Position numbers and translations under genes: made by a program. Positions 29,700-36,485 of a DNA stretch of 64,000 bases are shown here, one piece after another. The stretch is from Terriglobia bacterium (GTDB taxonomy: Bacteria; Acidobacteriota; UBA6911): assembly GCA_020072565.1 (NCBI GenBank), contig JAIQGI010000002.1, positions 124,001 to 188,000 of the forward strand. Direction: 5' to 3'. Under the pieces are notes generated by a model that had not been told where the DNA came from, ran no database searches, and was given only the letters and a program-made list of their open reading frames with translations. Position 1 is the stretch's first letter. The number at the start of each line of letters is the position of its first letter.

Positions 29700-29775
29700 A
29701 TCGGTTTCCTCTTGCCATTTGCCAGCGGTTTCTGGTTCCTATGGTATCGATCTCAGATCCGTTGGAGGTGTGTCC

Positions 29776-31332
29776 ATGAAGGAGTTCCTCCGCAAACATG
29801 GAGACCGCATTCATAGCACACTATCCTGTTTCGACCGCATGCTGTTTCGCGGCTATCTTCCCCTGATGTCCGGATGGGCCATGGCTCAATTCCTGGACCT
29901 CCTCAAACTGGATGGCAGCAGTCTGAAGCGGTTTTTGCTGCAAAACTCCGAACGAGTCAAAGACCACGCGGTTGCCATGGCCAGGAAATACAACCGGCGT
30001 TTTGAATACCTGCGGTCGCATATCCGAAAGGAGGAAAGAGCCCGGGAATTGGCGGAGCGGGACGGGATTGAAGAGGGCTTGGTATGTGTTTTCTCGATCG
30101 TGGAATCCTGCCGTACCTTCTCACTCCGTTTTTCTGCGGGCAGTCGTTTCGTGAGATCTGCGAGCCGGAAGTGCCTGCATTTTTACTACTATTTCATGGA
30201 CCGCGACTTTGGCTTGATTCATGTGCGGATCCAGAGTTGGTTTCCCATGCAGATTCAGGTTTACGTCAACGGGCATGAATGGTTGGCACGGAAGCTCGAT
30301 GCCCATGATGTTGCTTACAGCAAGCTCGACAACGTTTTGGTTTCGGTTTCCGACATCACGAGAGCCCAAAAATTCGCGGATCGTTTTCAGAGCCTGGATT
30401 GGCCGCGAATCCTGAACCGGTATGCCCGGCGGGTCAACCCTCAGATGCGGGATCTTCTTCATTCCTTCCAGTACTATTGGGTGACCGCCCAAAGCGAATA
30501 CTCGACCGACATCCAGTTTAAGAGTCGCCGGGACCTCTGCGAACTCTATCCTCAATTACTGTGCCACAGCACACTGTGCTTTGGCGCCAAGGAAGTCATG
30601 AACTTCTTGGGACGGAAACTGAACGGCAATTTCCAGGGAGAGATCGTGTCGGATCTCTCCACCCTCGCCTGCCGCCGCATCGGCGGATCGAGGATCAAAC
30701 ATCGTGTCAAAGAGAACTGGCTCAAGATGTACGACAAGGCCGGTCTCGTTCTTCGGGTGGAAACCGTAATCAATAATCCCGAGGAATTCCGCGTTCGCAA
30801 GCGAGTGACCCGCAAGGGCAAGACTCGGATGGAATGGGTCGACATGCGCAAAGGGGTCGCGTGGTTATTCCGCTATCGCGAGGTCTCCCTGAAAGCTAAT
30901 TCTCGTTATCTGGATGCGCTGGCAGTCGTCGATGATCCTACCGACGCTAAACGAGATCTTGATCGTATCACCACTCGTAAAAAGGATGCGGCGGGCCGGG
31001 GATGCTCCGCCTTCAATCCCCTGGCTCACAGCGACGCTGAATTATTCCGGGCGGTGATGGACGGAGAGCATTGCGTGAGAGGTTTCACGAATCGTGATAT
31101 CCGGACGAAGCTTCAATTAACGCAGCACTTGCGTGCCTGCGGTCAGGATCGAAAAAAGGCCAGTTCCAAGGTGAGCCGGATCTTCCGTCGTTTCCATGCT
31201 CATGGTCTAATAGCCAAATTTCCGAGGAGCCGGCGGTGGCGAGTGACTCTCTATGGCAGGCGCGTCATGGGAACAGCTCTCTATCTTCGAGAACGCGACT
31301 TTGCGAGAGCCCATGCCAAAATCGCAGCATGA
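29776..31332 (+). CDS. uncharacterised 518-aa protein with C-terminal winged-helix, multicopy family
   Basis: The protein begins MKEFLRKHGDRIHSTLSCFDR and is about 518 residues long. Visible blocks are RMLFRGYLP, a helical region, KCLHFYYYFMDRDFGLIHVRIQSWFP at about 135-160 and VYVNGHEWLARKLD. Next come KHRVKENWLKMYDKAGLVLRVETVINNP and a basic C-terminal domain reading GFTNRDIRTKL, KVSRIFRRFHAHGLIAKFP, RRWRVTLYGRRV, which looks like a winged helix. From memory it belongs to a widespread family of unknown function, sometimes labelled MarR-like. GTTGGAGGTGTGTCC gives a ribosome site for the ATG at 29776. A second C-terminus lies at 35650-35727, so it behaves like a mobile or duplicated gene. 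A weak 8-bp hairpin follows the stop (31344-31366). Confidence 0.65.
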   Translation: MKEFLRKHGDRIHSTLSCFDRMLFRGYLPLMSGWAMAQFLDLLKLDGSSLKRFLLQNSERVKDHAVAMARKYNRRFEYLRSHIRKEERARELAERDGIEEGLVCVFSIVESCRTFSLRFSAGSRFVRSASRKCLHFYYYFMDRDFGLIHVRIQSWFPMQIQVYVNGHEWLARKLDAHDVAYSKLDNVLVSVSDITRAQKFADRFQSLDWPRILNRYARRVNPQMRDLLHSFQYYWVTAQSEYSTDIQFKSRRDLCELYPQLLCHSTLCFGAKEVMNFLGRKLNGNFQGEIVSDLSTLACRRIGGSRIKHRVKENWLKMYDKAGLVLRVETVINNPEEFRVRKRVTRKGKTRMEWVDMRKGVAWLFRYREVSLKANSRYLDALAVVDDPTDAKRDLDRITTRKKDAAGRGCSAFNPLAHSDAELFRAVMDGEHCVRGFTNRDIRTKLQLTQHLRACGQDRKKASSKVSRIFRRFHAHGLIAKFPRSRRWRVTLYGRRVMGTALYLRERDFARAHAKIAA

Positions 31333-31837: not shown

Positions 31838-32599
31838 ATGGGATACACAACGATGCGGATGAGTGGCAGGGTGACACGGCCGACAGCAGTGGGACTGTTT
31901 CTGGCTTTCATTCTGGCACTTGAGGGTCCGGCTCTTGCCCAAGGGGTCATTGACATGCCGGCGCTGACGCAGGAGACACAGAAATTGGCGCGGACCCCTG
32001 GGGATATAACGATGGTCTGGTGGATTCCTGAGGACTACTGGCGAGCCAGCATGGCCGTGAATTCCCAGATGACCAAGGCTAAACTCGACGAATTCATCGA
32101 GCTGCTCTCACCTTATACAATGGTGGCCGTGGTAGACGGCAAAATCGGGACATTCGGCAGCGTCACCTACAAGTCGGAAGAGAGCATCCGGGAGAGCATC
32201 GTCATCAAGGACAACCAGGGACAAAGTTATATACCGCTCGCGGAAGATGCCGTGAGTGCCAACATGAAGACCATGTTGCAGATAATCAAGCCGATGGTTG
32301 CCAATATGCTGGGGAATATGGGCCAGAACCTGCATTTCGTGCTGTTTCCGACCAGGACCAAGGAAGGGACGCTCATTGCGGATGCCTGGAAAAAGGGATC
32401 CTTCCGTGTCTTCCTCGGCACCAGGGAATTCAAGTGGCGTTTGCCACTGGATTCGCTGCTCCCCGGCAAGAAATGTGCATCGTGCGGGGAGGAAGCCAAG
32501 GGTTCCTGGATTTTCTGCCCCTGGTGCGGAGCCAAGCTGCCGGCGGCGCCTGCCGCGAAGGAAACAGAGAGGCAGTCGGCACCGGCGGTCCGCAAATAG
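31838..32599 (+). CDS. exported protein of unknown function with C-terminal zinc ribbon
   Basis: The 253-residue protein has an N-terminal hydrophobic export segment (PTAVGLFLAFILALEGPALAQ). A mixed alpha/beta central domain of about 180 residues follows (TMVWWIPEDYWRASM, NLHFVLFPTRTKEG). It ends in a four-cysteine zinc ribbon CASCGEEAKGSWIFCPWCG near residues 215-233. GAGGGGAGGGTAAAG immediately before the ATG at 31838 is a strong ribosome site and decides the start over 31808. A zinc ribbon on an exported protein is unusual; alternatively the N-terminal segment is an anchor and the ribbon faces the cytoplasm. No family name was recognised. Confidence 0.65.
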   Translation: MGYTTMRMSGRVTRPTAVGLFLAFILALEGPALAQGVIDMPALTQETQKLARTPGDITMVWWIPEDYWRASMAVNSQMTKAKLDEFIELLSPYTMVAVVDGKIGTFGSVTYKSEESIRESIVIKDNQGQSYIPLAEDAVSANMKTMLQIIKPMVANMLGNMGQNLHFVLFPTRTKEGTLIADAWKKGSFRVFLGTREFKWRLPLDSLLPGKKCASCGEEAKGSWIFCPWCGAKLPAAPAAKETERQSAPAVRK

Positions 32600-32632
32600 G
32601 GGGCAGGCTGGAATTTCCTCATTACGGCTCAT

Positions 32633-32944
32633 GTCCGAGGGCTCAAGCGCGGCCGCCTTTTTCGCCAATTCGAGGGCTTCGGAACGGCTCTCCTCGCGCA
32701 TCGCCAGTATTTGCGAAAGCATGTGAATGCCGGGCACAAACTGAGGATTGATGCGGAGAGCTTTGCGCAGGCAGTTTTCCGCGCGTCCCAGCTGTTGGCT
32801 CCCACCCTGCTCGTAGGCAAACTGTGCCGCATAGTAATGCACCATACTGAAGCTCGCTGAAACCGACCAATTACCATTGCCGTCGTTGACGGTTTGAGTG
32901 GCGGCGACGACCCTTCCGACTGGGTCGTATTTGTAAGTAAATCT
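32633..32944 (-). pseudogene. fused fragments of a YD/RHS-repeat and a TPR protein
   Basis: Read leftwards, the first 33 codons contain a YD repeat (RFTYKYDPVGRVVAATQT), typical of RHS proteins. The frame then continues into a TPR-like pair (YYAAQFAYEQGGSQQLGRA, CLRKALRINPQFVPGIHML, AMREESRSEALELAKKA) and is lost in the end of the zinc-ribbon gene. Neither part has a proper start or end. The YD-to-TPR switch within one frame indicates recombination between unrelated genes. It is probably not expressed. Confidence 0.5.
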
Positions 32945-32990
32945 GGAGTGTCGCCGGTCGGGCCAGACCTGTAGCCGATCGACCTGCACC

Positions 32991-33161
32991 TAACGTGCCA
33001 ACGTTGCTATACCAGTAGTGCCAGACATTATAGATGAAATCAGCCTGCAGCGTATGGTAACTTGCGATTGCCTCGTCTGGGCTTGCCTCATTGCACGATG
33101 CCAGCATCCAGAACCAACGCGCATGCAAAGCTGCGACCTTTAGAGGACTTGCGAATTTGGG
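32991..33161 (-). pseudogene. unidentified gene fragment
   Basis: A 57-codon leftward stretch (KVAALHARWFWMLASCNE, then SYHTLQADFIYNVWHYWYSN) has strongly protein-like, aromatic-rich text but no start or stop of its own. It is joined directly to a HAD-type fragment on one side and the YD/TPR fragment on the other. The parent family was not recognised. Confidence 0.3.
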
Positions 33162-33174
33162 CAGCTGGATACAA

Positions 33175-33330
33175 GTCGTTGAGGACGCCCTCAACGGGAT
33201 CGAGGCCGCCAAGGCCGCCGGCATGCGTTTCGTCGCCGTTGCCCAGACCTTTCCCGCGCGCATTCTGGTTGGCGCCGATGTAGTCCATCCCACCATCGCC
33301 GAAGTGGTTATCGCAGATCTGGTCGGGTGA
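33175..33330 (+). pseudogene. C-terminal fragment of a HAD-superfamily phosphatase (beta-phosphoglucomutase-like)
   Basis: The frame VVEDALNGIEAAKAAGMRFV, then AVAQTFPARILVGADVVHP, ends at a TGA at 33328. It matches HAD motif IV (EDALNGIEAA, acidic metal ligand) and the following strands of the beta-phosphoglucomutase/phosphatase group. Motifs I-III are missing, so it cannot be active. The breakpoint is near 33165. Confidence 0.65.
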
Positions 33331-33431: not shown

Positions 33432-35408
33432 CTACTGGAACTTCAGCGGTCCTGCCAGCGGATTATCCCGATCGAGGAACGTGCGGCACCATGCCTCCAG
33501 AACCATCAACGCCCAGATCCGAGAGGCGTGATCCTGGCTGCGGCGGATGTGCTGGCCGAGCATGCGGCGCACGCAGGCGGGTTCGAAGAAGCCGCGCGAC
33601 AGCGCCCGTCGACTGAGCAGGAATTCCTCGGCCAACGGCCGCAGTCCCCCCCGCACCCAATCTCCGATCGGCACGCCGAACCCCTGTTTGGGCCGGTTGA
33701 GAAACTCTTCGGGGAAGTACCGCAGCACCGCTTTCTTGAGTAGATATTTCAGCGTTCCGTCCTTGAACCGCAGATTCGCGGGCAGATGTGCCGCGAAATC
33801 CATCACCTGTTGGTCGAGGAGAGGCGCACGGCCGTCCAGACAGAAGGCGCTGCACATGCGCTCGACTTTCGGGATCAGCGCCCCCGGCAGATACAGCGAT
33901 ATGTCGGAGAACGTCATCCGGTCAATCCATGCCCGTTCCGGCACCAGGTTCATCAGGTCCACGGTCATCTTATCCGATTCGGCCTCGGCCTGCCGCATGA
34001 GGGGGCGATGCGCTGTGGCCAGCAGGCGATGCTTCTCGTACTCCCGAAAGATGACCAGCCACTGGGTGTAAAGCTGCTCCTTGCTGATCAGCGTGGTATG
34101 GTTCACGTAGGAGAGTAGCTCCGCCTTGACGCTCATGGGAAACAGGCGGGCAAGCAGGGCAAAGGGACCGTCGGCAAGAGCGCGCAACGGGCGTGGGATC
34201 ATCCGATAGCGGCGGTGCGACGTGAATCCGCCATAGCGCCTGTAACCCGCGAAGCTCTCGTCGCCGCCGTCTCCGTTGAGCGCGATGTCGACGTGCTCTG
34301 CAGTCAGTTTGCACAGGTAGTAGGTCGGGATGCCGCTGCTGTCAGCCATGGGCTCGTCGAAGAACCAAGCGAGGTCTCCCAGGCATTCCAGCGCGCTGGG
34401 TTCCACCACGAACTCATGATGTCGGGTGCTGAACTGCCGGGCAACCTGCCGGGCGTAGGGTAGTTCGTTGAACTCATCTTCGCGGAAACCGATGGAGAAT
34501 GTCTTCAGCTCGCCGCTCGTGTGGCGGCGAACCAGGGCGACGATCGTGGACGAGTCAGTGCCGCCGCTGAGGTGGCAGCCGATCGAGCCTCCCCCTGCGA
34601 GTCGCACGCGCACGGCGTCGTCGGCCTGCGCCAGCGATTCCTCCACGGCCTCTTCTTCCGTGATCCGGCTCTTCGGCTCGTACTGCAGTTGCCAGTAGCG
34701 CTCCGTCGCGACCTTGCCATCCTTATAGACGAGCCAATACCCCGGAGGGAGCTTCGCTGCCCCCGAGAAGATCGACAGCGGATGCGGCACGTACTGGCAG
34801 GTGAGGTAATGGTTCAGCGCCATGATGCTGATCCGGCGCTCGAAGGCCGGATCGGCCAGGAACGACTTCACCTCGCTGGCGAAGAGCAGCGCCTCATCCG
34901 GGGATCCCGGATTCAGGTGCGCGTAGAACATCGGCTTGAGTCCGATGCGATCGCGCGCGATGAACAGAGCACCCTGCCTGGAGTCCTGCACCGCGAACAC
35001 GAACGGCCCTCTCAGCTTCAGAGCAACCGCTTTGCCCCATTGTTCGAAGCCGTGAAGAGCGACCTCTGCCTGCGAATCGGACCGGAAGGTGTGGCCAAGA
35101 CTGGACAGTTCCACGCGCAGTTCGCGGGCATTGAAGATCGAACCGTGGAAAACGATCAGGGCCGATGCGTCCTCGTTGTGCACCGGTTGTCCTGCCGCGG
35201 CTGGGGCCGCAGCAGGCGTCGGAAAGGTGCGATAGCCGAAACCAGTGCCCCGCCGGGTGCTGAAGCCGGTACCCGAAGGCGGCATCTTTACTGGACAACC
35301 CAGCATGTGCTGAAGAAGCCCCTCCTCTAGCGGGTGTTCGGGATCACGGTATATCTTTCCGGCAATGCCGAAGATCGGAACGGGCTGCACTTCGTTCAGA
35401 CGCGACAT
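33432..35408 (-). CDS. asparagine-synthetase-like amidoligase without the glutaminase cysteine
   Basis: The 658-residue protein has the AsnB two-domain layout. The N-terminal GATase-II-like domain (about 10-220) reads PIFGIAGKIY where active enzymes begin MCGI, so the nucleophile cysteine is phenylalanine 13 and the N-terminus is extended. Glutamine-pocket motifs are also altered (HGSIFNARELR for NGEIYN, RRGTGFGY for RGPDG). The C-terminal synthetase keeps the ATP PP-loop HLSGGTDSSTIVAL at about 278-291 and downstream NGDGGDESFAGYRRY and RPKQGFGVPIGDW. AGAGGAGAACTT before the ATG at 35408 confirms the start. It should adenylate a carboxylate using ammonia or another amine. Asparagine synthesis, lasso-type cyclisation or polysaccharide amidation are all open. 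Confidence 0.85.
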   Translation of the reverse strand: MSRLNEVQPVPIFGIAGKIYRDPEHPLEEGLLQHMLGCPVKMPPSGTGFSTRRGTGFGYRTFPTPAAAPAAAGQPVHNEDASALIVFHGSIFNARELRVELSSLGHTFRSDSQAEVALHGFEQWGKAVALKLRGPFVFAVQDSRQGALFIARDRIGLKPMFYAHLNPGSPDEALLFASEVKSFLADPAFERRISIMALNHYLTCQYVPHPLSIFSGAAKLPPGYWLVYKDGKVATERYWQLQYEPKSRITEEEAVEESLAQADDAVRVRLAGGGSIGCHLSGGTDSSTIVALVRRHTSGELKTFSIGFREDEFNELPYARQVARQFSTRHHEFVVEPSALECLGDLAWFFDEPMADSSGIPTYYLCKLTAEHVDIALNGDGGDESFAGYRRYGGFTSHRRYRMIPRPLRALADGPFALLARLFPMSVKAELLSYVNHTTLISKEQLYTQWLVIFREYEKHRLLATAHRPLMRQAEAESDKMTVDLMNLVPERAWIDRMTFSDISLYLPGALIPKVERMCSAFCLDGRAPLLDQQVMDFAAHLPANLRFKDGTLKYLLKKAVLRYFPEEFLNRPKQGFGVPIGDWVRGGLRPLAEEFLLSRRALSRGFFEPACVRRMLGQHIRRSQDHASRIWALMVLEAWCRTFLDRDNPLAGPLKFQ

Positions 35409-35424
35409 AAGTTCTCCTCTATCG

Positions 35425-35649
35425 TCAGTCGGCTGCAGCGGTGCGGCTGCCGCGGGCGATGCCTTCTTCTCGAACCTTATCGTCAGATAATCGCGCGCGA
35501 AAATGGGTTTGAAAGTCTACCAATTCGGGCCAGTAACCCACACCAGGCCAACGCTGACGGCCATGTTTGTCCTCTTCGATTGCGGGTCCACCCAAGTCGG
35601 CCTGATTACCGGGAATCCGATGACGTAACGCCGGAGAATAAGCTTCCAT
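35425..35649 (-). CDS. possible small ORF 16 bp upstream of the AsnB-like gene
   Basis: A 74-codon frame from ATG at 35649 (MEAYSPALRHRIPGNQADL, RQRWPGVGYWPELVDFQTHF) ends in TGA at 35425. It lies just before the ribosome site of the amidoligase, as expected for the first gene of a two-gene operon. No family was recognised and no good ribosome site precedes it. It could be a peptide substrate, an unrelated small protein or a chance frame. Its 5' end touches the relic of the 518-aa family on the other strand. Confidence 0.25.
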   Translation of the reverse strand: MEAYSPALRHRIPGNQADLGGPAIEEDKHGRQRWPGVGYWPELVDFQTHFRARLSDDKVREEGIARGSRTAAAD

Positions 35650-35727
35650 CGGCAGCAAGTCATGGGAGCGGCACTATATCTCCGCGATCACGACTTTCCC
35701 ACGGTACATTCCACAGTAGCCGCATGA
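35650..35727 (+). pseudogene. decayed C-terminus of the 518-aa family (second copy)
   Basis: The last 25 codons read RQQVMGAALYLRDHDF...VAA and stop at 35725-35727. They match the end of the 29776-31332 protein (RRVMGTALYLRERDF...IAA). Nucleotide similarity continues past the stop (GCATGATC, then a CTTTCTTTG-like run). The frame is lost upstream, so only the tail survives. Confidence 0.7.
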
Positions 35728-36182
35728 TCCTTCTTTGTATAAAGCAACGTACGCAACCGGATTCACGAAACTTCTCCTCCGGCGAGCTCTTTCCCGGCAT
35801 GTTCGGGGCGACCGCGGCCCGTCACACATGCTGCCACTACGGTGCACAAAAACGCAACGCTTTAAGTCCCTTCCGTGTAAGAAACAATTCGGGATCTAAA
35901 AGTGAAGCTTGGGCTCCTTCTTCTGGCATCGGATGCCGGGTCTCCGCAACAGGTTGTGCGGATTTCCGCCGTAAGTCCGCGATCCCGGATTCTGCATCTT
36001 GAGAGGCTCGGCGCTAAAGCATCCGATGCTTGACAGATCGGACGGACTGGCAGCGTGCGCGTCCCGCCCGCAGACAGGCGTGAACTGATGCGTTGGACGA
36101 GACTGATTTCACGGCAGGTTAGCCCTGATTTCTGGAGCCACCATTTTCCCCGGTGGCTGATTCTGGCATAATGCCACCCCTT
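35728..36182. other. non-coding stretch between repeat relic and transporter fragment
   Basis: No gene, RNA or clear hairpin was recognised in these 455 bases. It probably belongs to the rearranged block and may contain the former upstream region of the EamA gene. Confidence 0.3.
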
Positions 36183-36485
36183 ATGGGAAAAAAGTCTTCA
36201 CTCGCTGTGCCCGCTCTCGTGGCTGCAGTTGTGTCCTGGGGCAGCATTCCTCTCTTCCTGAAGCACTTCACCAACTACATGGATGCGTGGACGGTAAACG
36301 GAGCACGCTACTTGGTGGGCGCTCTGCTGCTTTTGCCGGCCCTGCGGCGAGCTGCCGATTCTGATTCCAGCCGCTCGAGCCTGTGGCGCAACGCCGTTAT
36401 ACCTTTTTGGTTTGCCTATTTCGATTGTGGGCCGCATATCTGCTGGCGCACAGCCGGGATGGGGCAGGGGAGCTTGAAATGCTGA
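36183..36485 (+). pseudogene. N-terminal fragment of an EamA/DMT-family transporter
   Basis: The 100 codons begin MGKKSSLAVPALVAAVVSWG and continue SIPLFLKHFTNYMDAWTVNG, ARYLVGALLLLPAL. This is the first EamA membrane pair of a drug/metabolite transporter, normally about 300 residues with ten helices. The frame ends (MGQGSLKC) exactly where the IS91-type remnant begins at about 36486, and no continuation is found beyond it. Insertion or recombination with that element has removed about two thirds of the gene. Confidence 0.75.

Follow-up and report, generated by a model that had tools for sequence, protein, structure and literature searches.

The minus strand of the window (the whole 64-kb stretch of DNA that was analyzed, to which all positions refer) carries at 33432..35408 a gene for a 658-aa protein with the Pfam domains GATase_7 and Asn_synthase, which we describe, from the open reading frame and its translation, Pfam and TIGRFAM scores, and a predicted model, as a putative AsnB-fold ligase with a dead glutaminase. 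All features of the gene given below lie on this strand. A Shine-Dalgarno sequence, AGAGGAG (35414..35420), can be read directly in the sequence 5 bases 5′ of the ATG, and the bases preceding the start are AGAGGAGAACTT-ATG. The strong ribosome site that the initial annotation took to fix the N terminus is thus present, and that annotation quoted the N terminus and the coordinates correctly. The protein opens with a 12-residue extension, MSRLNEVQPVPI (35373..35408), that is predicted to be disordered (pLDDT ~35 for residues 1 to 10), followed from position 13 by F-G-I-A-G. The F13 codon (35370..35372) stands at the position of the catalytic Cys1, and the codons ATC TTC GGC occupy the place of ATG TGC GGC. 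The ancestral start and nucleophile have thus both been lost, with translation beginning 12 codons upstream. A misread start was rejected, since no ATG/GTG/TTG-Cys start occurs in frame near the N terminus, and a promoter scan returned no signal above chance.

The gene is solitary among ordinary genes and fragments, which include a zinc-ribbon protein, an EamA transporter piece, a prolyl oligopeptidase, and atp and nuo genes. No glycan, EPS/exosortase, or peptide-product genes and no operon partner were recognized in the 64-kb window, as judged from its ORFs, part of which were scanned. The apparent fragments around the gene lie at 33091-33330 (+), 36153-36485 (+), and 32108-32989 (−), and comprise the EamA piece together with pieces that resemble, by eye, a HAD hydrolase and an Rhs-type repeat. 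A 537-aa ORF at 29719-31332 (+) matches nothing in Pfam or NCBIfam; over 0.9 kb it shares 86% DNA identity with a same-genus contig and the surrounding stretch matches little, a pattern that suggests a mobile element. A 77-aa ORF (35658..35425), whose end is separated from the start of the gene by 16 bases, was weighed as a possible coupled precursor and rejected for its lack of a Pfam match and its GC3 of 0.51, unlike that of real genes here.

We compared the protein with a reference set of 81 homologues that retain the catalytic cysteine (Cys+) and E. coli AsnB, numbering positions by E. coli AsnB with Cys1. Cysteine is found at position 1 in 81/81 of these homologues, and the alignment shows the changes C1F, H29K, R30M, G31P, D33S, R49T, L50F, I52T, N74H, E76S, Y78F, and D98Q in the glutaminase domain, so that only G75 is kept of the direct glutamine pocket. 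KMPPS (35274..35288) aligns with the homologues as a remnant of the HRGPD loop, Thr61 (35226..35228) replaces R49, HGS (35139..35147) replaces the NGE of N74-G75-E76, and Gln113 (35070..35072) replaces D98; R49 and D98 are each present in 81/81 Cys+ homologues, and N74 and E76 are invariant among the same 81. The signature of glutamine-dependent AsnB, Cys1/R49/N74/E76/D98, accordingly reads F, T, H, S, Q. Among N-domain columns defined as conserved (identical in at least 90% of Cys+ homologues and within the first 200 residues), 36 of 54 are kept and 18 are lost, and the losses take 13 of 14 pocket columns versus 5 of the 40 others (Fisher p ~1e-7, with the 14-column pocket list being our own choice from general knowledge). 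Behind the pocket, the stretch from G110 to E160 is kept apart from one Ala-to-Val change.

The synthetase domain presents the opposite picture. Its ATP (PP) loop, SGGTDSS (34548..34568), is intact in the translation and alignment, as are GDGGDE and K574 (33687..33689), the equivalent of the synthetase lysine K449, which is a lysine in 81/81 Cys+ homologues and in E. coli AsnB; the C-domain retains 54 of its 66 conserved columns. The glutamine-binding and hydrolysis site is gone, while the synthetase motifs and fold are retained. The initial annotation had read a phenylalanine in place of Cys1, further altered pocket motifs, and an intact ATP-binding site from the sequence, and each of these readings is upheld here. 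One synthetase region does depart from the reference: the acceptor-side motif KVDRMSMAxSLExR is changed to KVERMCSAFCLDGR (residues 512 to 527), which may mean either that the protein takes a different acceptor than its kin or that its synthetase is weakened.

An AlphaFold2 model built on a 25-sequence alignment (mean pLDDT 87, pTM 0.89) has as its nearest solved structure the hydroxyamidotransferase TsnB9 (7ylz; Z 37.6, 25% identity over 550 residues), which, unlike the protein studied here, starts MCG and retains RGPD, R49, and D98. It is followed by E. coli AsnB (Z 34.6), human ASNS (32), beta-lactam synthetase (~31), and carbapenam synthetase (28 to 29). Structural alignments with AsnB open with residue 13 on AsnB residue 1, F13 falling on residue 1 of both 1ct9 and 6gq3, and beta-lactam synthetase structures align from residue 12 or 13. 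The N-terminal fold is thus predicted to persist although its active site is gone, a state shared with beta-lactam synthetase.

Among family profiles, the best score was to TIGR03108, the XrtA/PEP-CTERM amidotransferase (494.9 bits over the full length), which is below the cutoff of 816.9; Cys+ near kin that were scored reached 644 to 731 bits and likewise fell under it. This family takes in WbpS, WbqG, and PGN_1234, which are tied to uronamide formation, and deletion of PGN_1234 abolished uronamide formation (PMC7468200). Several of the Cys+ near kin examined adjoin glycosyltransferase and nucleotide-sugar genes. The protein shares with the family the same synthetase and acceptor-side signature, EPxADSS, and has its nearest kin there by tree, but it lacks Cys1 and the glutamine pocket and lies outside any EPS/XrtA locus. 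In a tree of the synthetase domain alone, from which lasso cyclases and beta-lactam and carbapenam synthetases were left out, it branches basally in a clade of 17 rows (support, 95/90), the remaining 16 of which are all Cys+. Judged from these sequence comparisons, its ancestry is among Cys+ XrtA/EPS (WbpS-like) amidotransferases. The proposal in the initial annotation of a product other than asparagine is likely to be right, yet it applies equally to the Cys+ kin, which are themselves not strict asparagine synthetases.

Cys1 has been lost in beta-lactam synthetase (BLS; 1jgt) and carbapenam synthetase (CarA; 1q15), and it was with enzymes of this kind and lasso cyclases that the initial annotation compared the protein. 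The anatomy does match that of BLS: an AsnB fold with both domains (Z 28 to 31 over 450 to 475 residues for BLS and CarA), a short N-terminal extension, and an altered Cys1 position (F13), although the last is common to any Cys-less AsnB-fold protein. The family tie, however, is not supported, as the nearest kin are of the XrtA/EPS type, the protein is no nearer to BLS and CarA (22% and 15% identity) than to AsnB, and their pathway genes are absent from the window. Lasso peptide cyclases (McjC, NF033535) are likewise AsnB-related ligases without glutaminase activity (PMC4979651). The score to NF033535 was 177.9 bits, far below the cutoff of 525, and no precursor was recognized near the gene. 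A genome-wide search (98% complete genome) recovered no lasso B2 peptidase gene (PF13471, Transglut_core3); a role as a lasso cyclase is accordingly unlikely, and we rejected it.

Other proteins related to this one have also lost the cysteine. The genome encodes eight AsnB-like proteins, four of them Cys+ and four without Cys1, namely the present protein, L068:11075-12958, L069:7650-9539, and L071:10827-12671. The L068 and L069 genes (contig C7) lie within an XrtA/EPS locus, which in addition encodes an intact XrtA amidotransferase with a TTG start (L070:532-2409). Besides Cys1, the L069 protein has lost GDGGDE and, with V in place of K449, the synthetase lysine. The L071 gene (contig C28) lies away from EPS genes and close to cell-division genes and a MoeB/ThiF-like gene. 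In a related genus (genome G007), the protein L128 is a Cys-less relative of L068:11075 at 43% identity. Another genome of the same family (G006) encodes an XrtA-type amidotransferase, L018 (L073:12289-14193), that starts MSGICG, with Ser at the nucleophile position and DGA for NGE, the remainder of its pocket being mostly kept.

In the tree, three separate positions are taken by our protein, by L018 with its Ser, and by L068:11075 together with L128, and a single clade of all Cys-less proteins was rejected on these grounds. Given that L018 belongs to a clade of Cys+ proteins (support, 99/98) apart from our protein, Cys1 was lost at least twice. An approximately unbiased (AU) test did not reject a clade of our protein, L068:11075, and L128 (p 0.19), which leaves the number of losses uncertain. 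Altogether, the glutaminase seems to have been lost more than once within one bacterial family.

In human ASNS, R142, N74, E76, D405, and E414 form a network around the gate of the ammonia tunnel (PMC11615228). We transferred these positions through alignments and found D and E at the D405 and E414 positions in 81/81 Cys+ homologues. In our protein these are Glu516 (33861..33863) and Asp525 (33834..33836), and most of the other Cys-less proteins are changed as well, reading T/K (L068:11075), T/V (L128), and L/R (L071:10827); the Ser variant L018 retains both residues. The equivalent of the gate residue R142, K158, is retained. Changes of this kind would be expected if the tunnel no longer served a glutaminase, and, for sequences that are few and related, they are suggestive of a gate change accompanying loss of the cysteine. 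In this family, joint change at D405 and E414 could serve as a sequence marker of glutaminase loss that is open to testing.

Taking these results together, we consider it reasonably likely that the protein is a glutaminase-dead, ATP-dependent amide ligase that arose from XrtA/EPS (WbpS-type) surface-glycan amidotransferases and uses free ammonia or another amine. The ancestral Cys+ enzymes would amidate carboxylates such as the uronic acids of surface glycans. In the descendant, the N-terminal glutaminase domain would be kept as a scaffold, unable to bind or hydrolyze glutamine, and the C-terminal synthetase domain would adenylate a carboxylate with ATP and join it to an amine, with nitrogen coming from free ammonia or another amine rather than from glutamine. 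We infer the catalytic activity, the use of a non-glutamine amine, and the glycan-type acceptor; the protein itself is real and probably active as a ligase. Ammonia-dependent amidation and organic-amine ligation appear about equally likely.

The organic-amine reading, which we hold as tentative, is that the protein links a carboxylate to an organic amine, whether an amino acid, an amino sugar, or a polyamine, or carries out a ring closure inside a single substrate, like BLS, CarA, and lasso cyclases. Its BLS-like anatomy (cysteine lost, short extension, both domains kept) and changed tunnel gate are consistent with such a role, but the window holds no biosynthetic neighbors, a lasso B2 gene was not recovered from the genome, and the protein is no nearer to the BLS, CarA, and lasso families than to AsnB at large. 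Alternatively, and about as tentatively, the protein may be a strictly ammonia-dependent form of the amidation carried out by its Cys+ kin, in which the nitrogen source alone has changed and acceptor and product are the same. AsnB-type enzymes can draw on ammonia in place of glutamine. Retention of the R142 gate equivalent would fit such an enzyme, as would the example of the AS-like enzyme PesC, which takes ammonia (PMC13060819); the acceptor-side motif at 512 to 527 is also changed, however, so more than the nitrogen source differs.

It is improbable that the protein has no catalysis of its own and serves as a pseudo-enzyme, or as a regulatory companion to one of the other AsnB-like proteins, for example within a dimer. 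The genome does offer four Cys+ AsnB-like proteins as possible partners, and the Cys-less paralogue L069:7650 has gone as far as losing its synthetase lysine and GDGGDE, but every synthetase motif checked in the present protein is intact.

The initial annotation had also raised an isolated, decayed copy among homologues that all begin MCGI. The closest homologues found (37 to 43% identity) do start MCGI, save the one Ser-1 variant, and the gene is isolated: searches for an orthologue came back empty for the same-genus genome, for the class (38 genomes), for 396 genomes taken from the phylum, and for another two classes (162 and 193 genomes). A search of genome contigs gave homologues of 28 to 37% identity only, and plasmid matches were below 40% among the matches listed. 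The same-genus genome G001 has its orthologous peptidase (77%) at the end of a contig, where it is not readable whether our gene occupies that site. The frame is nevertheless intact over 658 codons with zero internal stops, and GC by codon position (0.65/0.45/0.78; GC3 0.78) is like that of the adjoining peptidase and nuo genes. On a terminal branch of 1.36 changes per site, along which the ATP loop, GDGGDE, and the K449 equivalent have stayed intact, neutral drift would be expected to leave dozens of stops among the 658 codons by our estimate that ~4% of random replacements create one. Given the intact frame, the normal codon bias, the concentration of losses in one pocket, and this long branch with its synthetase motifs kept, a copy decaying into a pseudogene is very improbable, despite the absence of orthologues and the gene fragments that flank it.

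A broader reading, which we put forward as speculative and rather unlikely, is that surface-glycan AsnB-like amidotransferases of this bacterial family have repeatedly shed their glutaminase and turned into ligases coupling organic amines, such as amino acids or amino sugars, to uronic-acid-type carboxylates, with gate residues changing alongside, and that the present protein is one such case. AsnB-fold enzymes that do not use glutamine include antibiotic-making and peptide-cyclizing enzymes, and each independent loss may offer a lead to ligase chemistry; reuse of the fold without glutamine is known elsewhere. Against TIGR01536, the glutamine-dependent asparagine synthase profile, which is blind to the active site, the protein scores 347.6 bits, above the cutoff of 267.1, and annotation pipelines would therefore label it "asparagine synthase (glutamine-hydrolyzing)" despite its lost glutamine-hydrolysis residues.
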